DNA of 64,000 nucleotides from Ecdyonurus torrentis (lineage: Eukaryota > Arthropoda > Insecta > Ephemeroptera > Heptageniidae). Shown piece after piece: positions 53,313-64,000 of this stretch. The first letter of the stretch is position 1, and each line of letters opens with the position of its first letter. Position numbers and translations under genes: made by a program. A model generated the notes under the pieces. That model was not told the origin of the DNA, did not search any database, and saw only the letters and a program-made list of their open reading frames with translations. The stretch is from positions 12,358,625 to 12,422,624 of the forward strand of contig OX439131.1 of NCBI GenBank assembly GCA_949318235.1, given 5' to 3'.

Positions 53313-56300
53313 ATGGGTAAGTATTGAATGTCAGCATTGGTTACTTTGTTTCGGCCGGCTTACTGCCTGATGAGTTGTCACTTTCACTTGATCTTATGCT
53401 CCTATTCGATACACATTATTATGGTTACGAGTTAAAAATTCACTAAAAAAAACACAAGGAAATTAGCAGAATGAATGAGTAGATTGAACTTTAATTTAAC
53501 TTAAAAATTCCGATGAAACCGTATGCAAGTCACATGGTCTAGTGCATGAGATGACCCTCCCTTTTTGTTTTTGCAGGTGGTTTGCTCAGTTATTTCAAGA
53601 GCCTGCTAGGCAGTCGGGAAATGAGAATTTTAATCCTCGGTCTCGATGGTGCAGGAAAGACTACAATTTTGTACAGGTAAGTTGATTTATTGATGCAAAA
53701 ATCTCATGCATACCAAGCATAAACATACATATGTAATACCGCACGGAAATCAAAACTTCCACAACTATGTATAGACTGAAATGCAACACTAAAATTGCAA
53801 GTTATTCATTTCAGTTCGGTATGTATGTATACATTTTGTATGTATGTAATGTATAGTCACCTTACACTATTATGTACATACATACTACATACTCACGGCC
53901 AGCAAAAAAATAACATCAAAGGGGTTTCGTTAAAAAGACAAAGGCTTAAAGGAAAAATTGAGTTAAGTGCTCAGTTGCTCGCAACAAAGCTCTTAACTAA
54001 CCCACCTTTTAGTCTTTTTCTTTATAAAGTGGCATTACCTTTGATGTTAAATTTTGGCTGGTCATGAGTATATACAGCACATCTGTATTACATGTACATA
54101 TGAATGTACATACTGAATCAAATGAAAAAGCTGTCGTATACGATTTTCTGTTAAGCCTAATGTAAGGCAGCTTTTTCATTTGGATTTGGTGATCATTACC
54201 AAATATTTTATTTTCTGTTTATCAGGCTGCAAGTGGGTGAAGTTGTGACTACCATTCCTACAATTGGCTTCAATGTGGAGCAAGTTACGTACAAGAACTT
54301 AAAATTCCAAGTATGGGATCTTGGGGGACAAACAAGTATTAGGTAAATATTACAGCTGTATCATAAGTAATCAAATTACACTGCCCAATTACTACTACTT
54401 ACCCACAGATATGATTAAGTGTACTTACGATTAAGTACACTGTGCCCCCCTCCCCTCCAACGCCCACAAAAAAGAAAACTGACTGCTTGTGTTAAAGTTT
54501 CCTCATATAAATTATTATTTATTTGTCTCCGACTGTACATACATAAAACCAGGGACCGGAACCAGTTCCGGTTCTTAGAACCGCCAAGAACCGGTTCTTA
54601 GGAACCGCTTTTGAGAACTGGTTCATAGGAACCGTTTTTTAGAACCGGTTCTTAAGAACCGCTTTTTCAAAACAGTTCCAAGAACCAGTTCTTAAGAACC
54701 GTTTGCAATATTTTAAGAAAATTGCAAAGAAGATAAAAAATAGCATATTTTATTAAATGTTGTGTGATATAATGCATGTTAAACAAAAATACATCGCGAA
54801 AGAGTGCGGCGGGCACTCTAATTTTTTTTTGTAATGTTCACGACGATCGCAGCACAAACTAGAACTGGAACCGGTTCTTAAGAACCGCTTTTGAGAAACG
54901 GTTCTCAAGAACCGCTTTTCAGAACTGGTTCCTGGAACCGTTTCCAAGAACCGGTTCTCAAAACTTGGTTCTTAAGAACCTCTTGTTCAGGAACCGCGGT
55001 TCTTAAGAACCGCTAAAATTGGCAGCGGTTCCGGTCCCTGCATAAAACCAATATCTGTCACTAAGGTTATTTTATTTGTAAGAAATGTGCTTTCAAGCTA
55101 ATATGGTGCACTATACCAAAATTGGTCAACAATCACTGCATTCAGTGTTAAAAATATATCAACATTTACACTTGACTAAATAGTATAGCTAGTTGAGATA
55201 TAATATAATCCAAGATTTAAAAAAGTGCATAAAATTACTGATAAAATCAATTTAAGGAAAAAACCATCGCGGTTAGGATCAATGATAAAGAAAAGGATAG
55301 AAAAACCAGCAAGGGCCTTACCACAGTAGAAGTTCTATGGAGAGGTCGAGGTCTTGCATGGCACAGTATAATGTTATAAAAGTTTCTTTATAACTTGAGA
55401 GCTTTTGTCATATGATAATGACATTATCAATCAAAAGAGAAAATTACTTGAGCACATCACTGAGCAGTGTCTTGTCTTGTACTGGACAAGACAAGACACT
55501 GCTCAGTGATGTGCTCAAGTAATTTTCTCTTTTGATTGATAATGTCATTATCATATGACGAAAGCTCTCAAGTTATAAAGAAACTTTTATAACATTATAC
55601 TGTGCCATGCAAGACCTCGACCTCTCCATAGAACTTCTACTGTGGTAAGGCCCTTGCTGGTTTTTCTATCCTTTTCTTTATCATTGAAAATTACTGATAA
55701 AACAAATTATTGCTAGAAAATGGATCTTATGTATCTCGTTATCTACAGTATATAAATTGGAGAATTTTTGTGTTTCATATATTTTTAATTTAACTTGCTC
55801 TAATCTATCTACATACCATTTGTACATTAAATTTCATATATGATAAAACAAAGTACACTTAAATATAATAAAAAAAAAATGTTATTACATCATACCTGGT
55901 GATAAAAAGTACAGTGCCTGTACCCTATGTACTAGCATTATCATTGGTGAAATAATATTCGAATGCAAAATGTAATAATATTACAAAAATTTGACTAAGC
56001 CAAATACCCTTTATATGAAGCTCGCTTTCTACAGAGCAACATGAGTGGCTAGTACATATGCTTAATTACATATTACACACTTTGCATGGATCTTTGGCCT
56101 GGGTTAGAAGTTATTTTTTCTACCACAGCATCCCTGTCAGTCTTAGCTCATTGCTATCTCCCATTTTCCAAATTTTCTTAATCTATCTGCGTTTTTCTAT
56201 CAAAAATGGTTCATTATCATATGTAAAATGTGTTGATTATAATTTTGTGTGTTGACAGGCCATACTGGAGATGTTACTATTCCAATACAGATGCTATCAT

Positions 56301-61587: not shown

Positions 61588-64000
61588 TTAGAAATCCAGA
61601 TCTAATGTAGGTGGTCCAAATCTGTGCATAGTCTTTCCCTGTGCTGAAAGGTCCATCTGTACCTTCTTTCTCATGTAGAAAATTGGGCAGTCACGACTGT
61701 AAACAGCCAAAGAATACATCATTAAAAATTTAAAATAATAATATTAAAAACTGGGACGAAATTGAATGACTTCAGGTACAACTTGCAAAGCTAGATTCAC
61801 AACTTGCATCAGATTTTAATTGTTACAAAGAGTGATCAAATTCATTTTCCCTTAAGAAAAGCATTAAGTAAACAATTTGATCACCAAGTTTGCAACAATA
61901 ACAATTCTGATGCAAGTCATGAATTGCAATCCCAAAGAATTGATATATTTTATCAGTTTTATGTGGAATATCAATTTAAGGAAAAAAACCATCGCGGTTA
62001 GGATCAATGATAAAGAAAAGCATAGAAAAACCAGCAAGGGCCTTACCACAGTAGAAGTTCTATGGAGAGGTCGAGGTCTTGCATGGCACAGTATAATGTT
62101 ATAAAAGTTTCTTTATAACTTGAGAGCTTTCGTCATATGATAATGACATTATCAATCAAAAGAGAAAATTACTTGAGCACATCACTGAGCAGTGTCTTGT
62201 CTTGTACTGAGTACAAGACAAGACACTGTCTTGTACTGAGTACAAGACAAGACACTGCTCAGTGATGTGCTCAAGTAATTTTCTCTTTTGATTGATAATG
62301 TCATTATCATATGACGAAAGCTCTCAAGTTATAAAGAAACTTTTATAACATTATACTGTGCCATGCAAGACCTCGACCTCTCCATAGAACTTCTACTGTG
62401 GTAAGGCCCTTGCTGGTTTTTCTATCCTTTTCTTTATCATTGATTTTATGTGGAATAGACAGGATAACTTTCAAACTTGATACAAAGGAAAAGTCAAGAT
62501 AAATCTACGATAGTCTATTTATTTTAACACCATAAGCAACATGGAAACTTCGTATTATGTGAAAGTTTAAAATTAATGAACTAAACATTTGAGTTGCAAT
62601 CCTATCAGACATTCCCCCATGTATTTACTTTAAACTCCTGCACTAACCTTGTACAAATGACTTCCTCATGCAAGCTTCCTTGACAGCGCTGACACTGAGT
62701 CCACAGTCTTGAGAAATCTTTCTCTAAGTTCTGCAACTTAGCCATCTCCACCTGGTATATTGAGGGTTGCTTGGGGAGACAGTGACCACAAACTGCACCC
62801 TTGGTACTAGCAGGCAGTGGGGTCTTACATCCAAGACAGACTTCTCGCTTCACAGTGAACGCAGCCATGGCTCCTACCTTGGATGTGGTCTTGGTTTTAC
62901 TCAGTGTGTGTTCTCCCTCTATATAAATCATTCAAATTATGTAGTCATGGTGAAATCAAGACCTACTATATACAAAGTATAATGGTGAACTTACTAAGCA
63001 GAGTGGCTTCAGCTTTGCTGTCACCAAGTATAGGACTGAAAATTCTCAGCAAAGGTTTCTCTAGTTGGTTGTGCAAGTAGTAGTCAGTGTCAATTGACAC
63101 ACTGTTCTCTAATACATAAATTGGATCCTGAAACAATAATAATACTAAATAAAAATTGCATTGAATACAACCATATAAATGTAACAGCCCTCAATAAATA
63201 TGATATCAAATATGCTTATGTTGTTACATTGAGTAGGAAATGCATACAATGCATAATTCGTTGAGTGCGTGTCATGAGGTATGTGGCGCACAAGAGAGTC
63301 TTGGCCTCGGCCAAGCCAAGAGCCTCTGCTGAACTTGTTCTCTGTATTGCATATACTTATAGTGAATAAATAGTGTAATATATAATTCTTGATTATCATT
63401 CATCCATTCGCTATTAATGATCCACCACACAATCCATCATAAACCACTACAAACGTGACTTTAGCTTTTCCAATGTCGCATAAAAGCATAAAACCCTTAA
63501 AATGTGCAAAGTTATTAAACTCTATACTCATTATTTTCTTACATTTTTTTCTCATAAACATTATCTACCAGAATGTCTCTCTCTTCTCTATTTAATATAA
63601 AATAAATTAAATATTTGTATAAACTGTACAATCAATCTTTCACCTAGCAACAAATATCATAATAAATCCCCCCCCCCCCCCCTCAAACTGAAATGTTTAT
63701 TTCTTTAAAACCATTAATTAACTGCCTTTTTTTTCATTGAGAGATGTATTGGTACAATCAACATTATAATAATCACATAATATATCAATACATTGTAATC
63801 ACTCAAACTGACCTCTGATTTGAGATAAGCTGGTGTATTCTTAGCTGCAGCTACAATCACATAAGGCACACGATCTCCAAGCTTGGGTGCTGTACCAGGG
63901 TCACGTTTCCTCATCTTCTCAGCCAACTCTACGTGAGCTTGCTTTGCTTTGTAGTCCTCCTTGGCTAGCTCCTTGGTGATCACAAGCTGAGAGATATCCA
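61588..64000 (-). CDS. PolD1: DNA polymerase delta catalytic subunit, C-terminal four exons (partial)
   Basis: Minus-strand exons in gene order: 63813-64000 (open at the window edge), 62995-63127, 62648-62918, 61588-61696. The frame is kept across all three introns. The first exon reads [16 protein letters not shown] through [19 protein letters not shown], matching the polymerase thumb region. Next come DPIYVLEN and [20 protein letters not shown]. The zinc-binding CysA motif ([20 protein letters not shown]) follows, then CysB ([14 protein letters not shown], completed by SRDC in the last exon), which in known enzymes holds a 4Fe-4S cluster. The end is [17 protein letters not shown]1 is the replicative lagging-strand polymerase and carries a 3'-5' exonuclease, both encoded upstream of the window. 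The last intron (61697-62647) contains palindromic copy 3. ARL1 is the convergent neighbour. Confidence 0.97.
61971..62443. mobile_element. palindromic element family P, copy 3 (473 bp), 14-bp target duplication, in the last POLD1 intron
   Basis: Same arms and left end as copies 1 and 2. The direct repeats TTTTATGTGGAATA are at 61957-61970 and 62444-62457. The centre is expanded: the self-complementary unit CTTGTACTGAGTACAAG occurs twice, which accounts for most of the extra length. The right end reaches ATCATTG(A), as in copy 1. The insertion leaves the POLD1 splice sites untouched. Confidence 0.93.
63668..63682. repeat. C15 homopolymer in a POLD1 intron
   Basis: Fifteen consecutive C in the intron between the exons at 63813 and 63127. 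Confidence 0.9.

Follow-up and report, generated by a model that had tools for sequence, protein, structure and literature searches.

How Penelope-like elements (PLEs) insert is poorly known, and the literature examined describes their inverted pseudo-long terminal repeats (pLTRs) and optional tails but offers no agreed cause for them. Here we report, from a 64,000-nucleotide stretch of the genome of the mayfly Ecdyonurus torrentis (contig OX439131.1, positions 12,358,625 to 12,422,624 of the forward strand; hereafter the window), three palindromes which are the shortest insertion products of a PLE and not a separate family. A close described system is PAc, the Poseidon PLE of Anolis carolinensis, which cuts and extends both strands in vitro and starts reverse transcription at two internal RNA sites bounding the tail (PMC11167929). 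The mayfly element resembles it in its protein with reverse transcriptase (RT) and GIY-YIG domains, its pLTRs, its tandem copies, its AT-rich targets and its tail between two internal start sites, 30-40 bp long in PAc and 32 nt here (PMC11167929). PAc is known in vitro, and paired arms per insertion are not reported in the portion of that paper considered here, whereas our data are genomic sequence; they agree with two-strand priming as in PAc (PMC11167929).

For the Penelope elements of Adineta vaga (e.g. Pen2a_Av), self-priming on an antisense template has been proposed, and the excerpts of that report considered here describe inverted pLTRs of ~200 bp, one of which may carry a 31-bp tail, together with target duplications and with palindromes at the joint, all of which recall the mayfly insertions (PMC3846280). 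According to the same excerpts, the duplications of A. vaga measure 8-10 bp, versus ~14 bp here, and no association with duplications was seen for its solo pLTRs, whereas the pLTR-only palindromes described below have them (PMC3846280).

The three palindromes lie at 55247-55687, 58834-59271 and 61971-62443 (copies A, B and C). Their arms measure 202, 197 and 218 nt, the last figure counting the duplicated centre of copy C; they are 99-100% complementary, with a spacing of 5-7 nt, and each copy carries a single non-palindromic tail of 32-33 nt, on the left side in all three. Folding of copy C gave -391.7 kcal/mol, whereas 100 shuffles averaged -103.8 (z -54.6). Outside the centre, differences are limited to one base in the tail-bearing arm of A, one in the tail-less arm of B, and one in the tail-bearing arm of C, which also has one extra tail base. 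These arm changes are single and private, and the three centres are all unlike one another. Direct repeats of 16, 14 and 14 bp flank the copies in the longest parse, and none of 4000 random window segments submitted to the same procedure reached 12 bp (best, 11). In the parse common to all copies, which starts at TCAATTTAAGG and ends with CATTGA, the duplication is 15 bp in A, 14 bp in C and 13 bp in B, the last copy being truncated at its right end. The preliminary description of this DNA had thus rightly recognized three near-identical palindromes with few differences outside the centre, one end fixed and the other variable, and a direct repeat proper to each. The features are as follows, the cDNAs being named according to the reading developed below.

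55232-55246, no strand: copy A, left target duplication AAATTACTGATAAAA, 15 bp (16 in the longest parse)
55247-55278, minus strand: copy A, 32-nt tail, with the putative outer reverse-transcription start at 55247
55279-55484, minus strand: copy A, tail-bearing cDNA, sense pLTR
55486-55687, plus strand: copy A, tail-less cDNA, with the putative inner start at 55687
55688-55702, no strand: copy A, right target duplication
58821-58833, no strand: copy B, left target duplication TAAAATAGGTTTT, 13 bp (14 in the longest parse)
58834-58865, minus strand: copy B, 32-nt tail
58866-59070, minus strand: copy B, tail-bearing cDNA, sense pLTR
59077-59271, plus strand: copy B, tail-less cDNA, beginning ~8 nt inside the inner start
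59272-59284, no strand: copy B, right target duplication
61957-61970, no strand: copy C, left target duplication TTTTATGTGGAATA, 14 bp
61971-62003, minus strand: copy C, tail, 33 nt with one extra base
62004-62209, minus strand: copy C, tail-bearing cDNA, sense pLTR
62210-62238, no strand: copy C, 29-nt extra palindromic centre, duplicating pLTR-end sequence
62239-62443, plus strand: copy C, tail-less cDNA, with the putative inner start at 62443
62444-62457, no strand: copy C, right target duplication

The genome (503 Mb in 117 contigs) was searched with a 236-nt query made of arm and tail. Out of 1514 first-look candidates, 40 were scored and yielded 42 matches, 40 of which were full-length and identical. 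The 60 nt upstream of the arm were alike, small variants aside, in 29 of 30 loci fetched, the remaining one (L005) being another palindrome. Upstream of the arm, locus L001 carries a 390-aa frame of RT/GIY-YIG type with a GIY-YIG-like C-terminus, and locus L034 an 852-aa frame. Of 7990 scored candidates, 2434 are relatives of the latter at E <= 1e-3; four chosen relatives all matched RVT_1 above the Pfam cut-off and GIY-YIG (PF01541), three of them above and one below the cut-off. The C-terminus of the L034 frame aligns with the GIY-YIG relatives and keeps their invariant residues, and the RT motifs could be aligned as well. Because this RT and GIY-YIG pair occurs together with inverted pLTRs (17 of 20 long loci), a 32-nt tail and a tandem copy (L020), we assign the element to the PLEs. 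The arm and tail form its 3' end (pLTR plus tail). Genome-wide, 592 exact tail-pLTR junctions (311 + 281) were counted, and 975 (511 + 464) when up to two mismatches are allowed, with no match to the reversed pattern in either search. Copies are truncated at the 5' end: sense cDNAs run from 499 to at least 2937 nt across the 20 long loci, and the N-terminal piece gave 15 candidates versus 592 tailed ends. The element is an abundant and recently active Penelope-like retrotransposon.

The palindromes had been taken to be mobile, recent, retroposon-like and not of the cut-and-paste type, all of which proved right; they do share an end with an autonomous retroelement. Their standing as an undescribed independent family is not supported, since the shared 236-nt end runs on into an ORF of RT/GIY-YIG type and the insertion products form a range, with the palindromes at one extreme. 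Nor is retroposition driven by a long interspersed element (LINE) supported, as the shared end spans the whole 236-nt arm and tail before continuing into that ORF; the proposed look for a LINE sharing the terminal 40 bp did lead to an autonomous retroelement with a common end, but to a PLE. Short interspersed element (SINE) and LINE readings were dropped once an RT frame appeared upstream of the arm, and a LINE-mobilised SINE was rejected since the whole arm, not just the tail, belongs to the autonomous element. RNA polymerase III boxes, sought with four patterns, were absent from copy B.

A hammerhead ribozyme in the pLTR region is common among PLEs but is not known to define them. PAc has one (PMC11167929), whereas none was found here in loose Rfam searches, and copies A-C contain no CTGANGA core. 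Rfam at gathering cut-offs gave no match in the window; looser searches gave 45 generic hairpin-family matches, all below cut-offs, and four chance-level matches in L020:1400-2100. In 310 ORFs of the window (at least 50 aa), the search for RT/GIY-YIG motifs returned just seven xxDD strings, judged to be chance. Neither a 24-mer nor a 27-mer had an exact match in viral_contigs, and the 27-mer had none in genome_contigs; a 19-nt tail piece sought as text in the literature gave none. A solved-structure search gave two canavalin matches at E 0.39, taken as chance.

Longer stretches were fetched for 20 of the 30 loci; with L005, they make up 21 loci tested. A common layout was found in 17 of the 20 long loci, a tail-less antisense cDNA standing head-to-head with a tailed sense cDNA, mostly between duplications of ~14 bp. 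In 18 of the 21 loci, the end lying across from the tail has an antisense pLTR beside the duplication, and in 12 of these 18 this pLTR starts 0-1 nt from the inner site. Mapped to one coordinate, the insertions are made of two cDNAs of the same element, each ending at its own point, and the palindromes are the case in which both cDNAs stop ~236 nt in. Among 21 joints measured, 12 share 1-8 nt, that of L005 shares 15 nt and eight hold 1-75 extra nt; those of L031, L034 and L038 were not measurable by joint mapping. One more locus, L051, is likewise palindromic and, by eye, bears a duplication of its own. A diverged copy, L053 (G000:C4:24148455-24149075), has the same layout and therefore points to earlier activity of the family or to a second subfamily.

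Duplication length was compared across 23 insertions, namely the 20 loci (longest parse) and the three window copies (common parse). It is not widely variable: 14 bp in 13 insertions, 15 in six, 13 in three and 11 in one, with an AT content of 83%. By the longest parse, duplications of at least 11 bp were found in 20 of the 21 loci. The base after the duplication is G in 12 of the 16 cases having A or G there (P 1.4e-4), and across the insertion the corresponding preference for C was not significant (9/19, P 0.06).

Because the first loci came from a tail-bearing query, a pattern ignoring the tail was used to count exact inner-boundary ends, of which there are 881 genome-wide, 592 of them tailed. 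The pairing test was performed on 100 of these 881 matches, those listed, all on contig C1 (66 tailed, 34 untailed), and pairs were defined by the ends alone. Head-to-head adjacent ends within 5 kb formed 24 pairs, against one pair in the opposite orientation and none on the same strand. Exactly one tail was present in 23 of the 24 (12 on the left, 11 on the right), no pair had two and one had none, while 45% of pairs would be one-tailed if tails were independent.

The two arms of an insertion also resemble each other in sequence and length. Over the stretches covered by both arms, 25 variants relative to the reference are common to the two, in nine of 21 insertions, L045 alone accounting for 11 of them. 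Arms of one insertion differ at 2.7 positions per kb, versus a mean of 6.7 for shuffled partners, and none of 2000 shuffles was as low; private arm differences are found mostly in L031, L037 and L040. Arm lengths agree within 15 nt in four of 17 long insertions (at ~499, ~540, ~767 and ~2250 nt), versus 0.65 expected (P 0.003). The shared variants and near-equal lengths fit two cDNAs made from one RNA with one 5' end.

Tandem copy L020 reads, in order, ORF end, pLTR, tail, leader and ORF start. Since the tail of this copy is continuous with the leader and the beginning of the ORF, the tail end lies within such an RNA, and reverse transcription therefore begins inside it. An ATG in the tail was discarded as the ORF start, the L020 frame into the ORF beginning further on. 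The sequence leading into the pLTR of this locus is ...ACACGGC/AGTACAAG. In the window palindromes, the turn lies at most a few nt from AGTAC. Since nothing else in the DNA marks an end there, a putative RNA 5' end was placed at the turn, with a putative RNA start at ...GGC/AGTACAAG, whose CAGT resembles an arthropod initiator. A cDNA from the first pLTR-tail site of an RNA starting at AGTACAAG would measure ~236 nt. The centre pattern showed this turn elsewhere too, with 161 + 103 matches genome-wide (control 0), palindromes, strands and gap variants being counted repeatedly; contig C1 holds 23 distinct centres, with an exact tail within 230 nt in nine and at 535 nt in one. Both start sites read AUUGA in RNA. 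The fold around the tail end was no better than that of shuffles (z -1.4; 18 of 200 as good). In L020 (1660-1800), the outer start site stands beside a possible stem-loop (AAAUUGAUU / AGUCGAUUU).

Taken together, these results indicate that the palindromes are probably pLTR-length insertion products of the autonomous PLE, generated by a paired course of reverse transcription. The PLE enzyme would cut both target strands ~14 bp apart, and each freed 3' end would prime reverse transcription on the same RNA, either from the outer site, giving a cDNA with the 32-nt tail, or from the inner site, 32 nt upstream, giving one without. Each cDNA would then reach the RNA 5' end or stop sooner, and the two cDNA ends would be joined head-to-head, mostly via a few shared or extra bases, gap filling after joining being expected to leave the ~14-bp duplication. 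Where the cDNAs stop early on a long RNA, the outcome would be inverted pairs whose arms differ in length and which include part of the ORF, while an RNA beginning at the pLTR, with run-off of both cDNAs, would produce a palindrome of ~440 bp. The sequence itself shows the element, its layout, the duplications, the single tail of each pair, the variants common to both arms and, in a tandem copy, the internal tail end; the cutting pattern, the order of events, the use of one RNA molecule per insertion and the run-off at its 5' end are what we infer from the DNA. In its strict form, this course would be a paired priming, in which a single RNA is primed by both strands of one ~14-bp staggered cut, each at one of two start sites separated by 32 nt, and the two first strands are joined instead of undergoing ordinary second-strand synthesis, the pLTR-length palindromes being the run-off ("strong-stop") class that marks the RNA 5' end; we lean towards this version at slightly better than even chances.

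LINE-1 twin priming also relies on two primers, one per strand, and leads to inverted joints with short shared bases. The mayfly insertions are unlike it in that inverted pairs occur in 17 of 20 long copies with fixed internal starts, poly(A) is absent and the protein is of the PLE type. With hundreds of nearly identical insertions, both-strand priming, the use of one RNA and the choice of start site may be read from sequence, and the one-tail rule (23/24 pairs) and the shared variants make sharp predictions for in vitro work like that on PAc. The value of these data lies in a clean genomic record of PLE insertion and its paired cDNAs rather than in a new mobile family.

Several observations weigh against this interpretation. 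In PAc, start sites do not differ between strands in vitro, as opposed to one tail in almost every pair here (PMC11167929). Antisense cDNAs start 7-9 nt inside the inner site in three loci and 40-71 nt inside it in three others, the antisense partner is absent in two of the 20 long loci (L034, L038), L035 has only an inverted piece of 58 nt and lacks any duplication reaching 10 bp, and the 11-bp repeat of L038 could be chance. In L052, the sense piece is ~36 nt and a few tail bases stand on the tail-less side. Among the 100 listed ends on C1, 52 are unpaired, 43 of them tailed (of 66); ends may seem so because a truncated or mutated partner misses the exact pattern. On the same contig, 13 of the 23 centres have no exact tail within 600 nt. 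As to the element itself, the L034 frame matched RVT_1 at 1.4e-5, under the Pfam cut-off and weak when taken alone, it had no Pfam GIY-YIG match at E <= 0.1, and the name Penelope is absent among its listed relatives. Finally, gene conversion between the arms could yield shared variants, but not easily near-equal lengths.

A single tailed cDNA might also fold on its own 3' end and copy itself into the second arm, a snap-back to which the palindromic or near-palindromic centres, the 29-bp duplicated centre of copy C, the 58-nt inverted piece of L035 and the near-equal arms of seven of 21 insertions (the three window copies included) would lend themselves. A fold-back copy should be symmetric, whereas most long pairs are unequal by more than 200 nt, and the second arm, which in 12 of 18 cases begins at a fixed site of its own, has no tail, although copying of the first cDNA would have brought one along. 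Given the inequality of most arms and the separate start of the second, self-priming is disfavoured as the principal route, and we regard it as unlikely.

We likewise doubt that the palindromes descend from a palindromic master, a non-autonomous element whose long hairpin RNA would be inserted as a unit by the PLE enzyme. The abundance of pLTR-length palindromes (the repeat-counted 161 + 103 centre matches; 23 distinct centres on C1) and the common orientation of the window copies speak for such a master, yet the window centres differ while the arms are nearly identical, and many centre types exist genome-wide. Moreover, the palindromes end a range that includes arms of 499, ~540, ~767 and ~2250 nt, which one master cannot yield, and the tail-less side begins at the same inner site in palindromes and long copies. 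A fold-back DNA transposon or an assembly artefact, which the palindromic shape alone would suggest, has a negligible chance of being correct, given the asymmetric 32-33 nt tail outside the inverted repeat and the ~14-bp duplications, on which any cut-and-paste or fold-back transposon was rejected, the continuous link to the retroelement ORF, the different flanks of each copy and the many copies.

Insertions of the element are clustered. Three in 7.2 kb compare with 0.014 expected at a density of one per 516 kb, and the 78 tailed ends of C1 are separated by six gaps shorter than 10 kb (1.0 expected, P 0.0006) and 12 shorter than 25 kb (2.5 expected under uniform placement). Local re-insertion, regional duplication or favoured target regions are possible causes.

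The rest of the window has the look of insect DNA. Two frames (25572-27386 and 37061-38011) match major royal jelly protein (MRJP)/yellow, and the N-terminal half of the first contains a long acidic stretch. For the longer frame, the best relative comes from the mayfly Ephemera danica, with 44% identity over 59% of the query. A ligand-gated channel exon and an Arf-family exon are also present. Between copies B and C, a separate element at 60160-61440, with the ends TAGAGTACTCTAGAAGGGG / CCCCTTCTAGAGTACTCTAG (by eye), contains two near-perfect hairpins, at 60438-60792 (154-nt arms) and 61192-61418 (93-nt arms). An older palindromic unit occupies 57475-57940, in the intron preceding the Arf-family exon; its 118-nt arms are 77% complementary (57576-57843) and its GGGGTAG...CTACCCC ends stand by TTAA-like bases (by eye). 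Tandem repeats built on AAGAACCGGTTCTT lie at 54586-55012.

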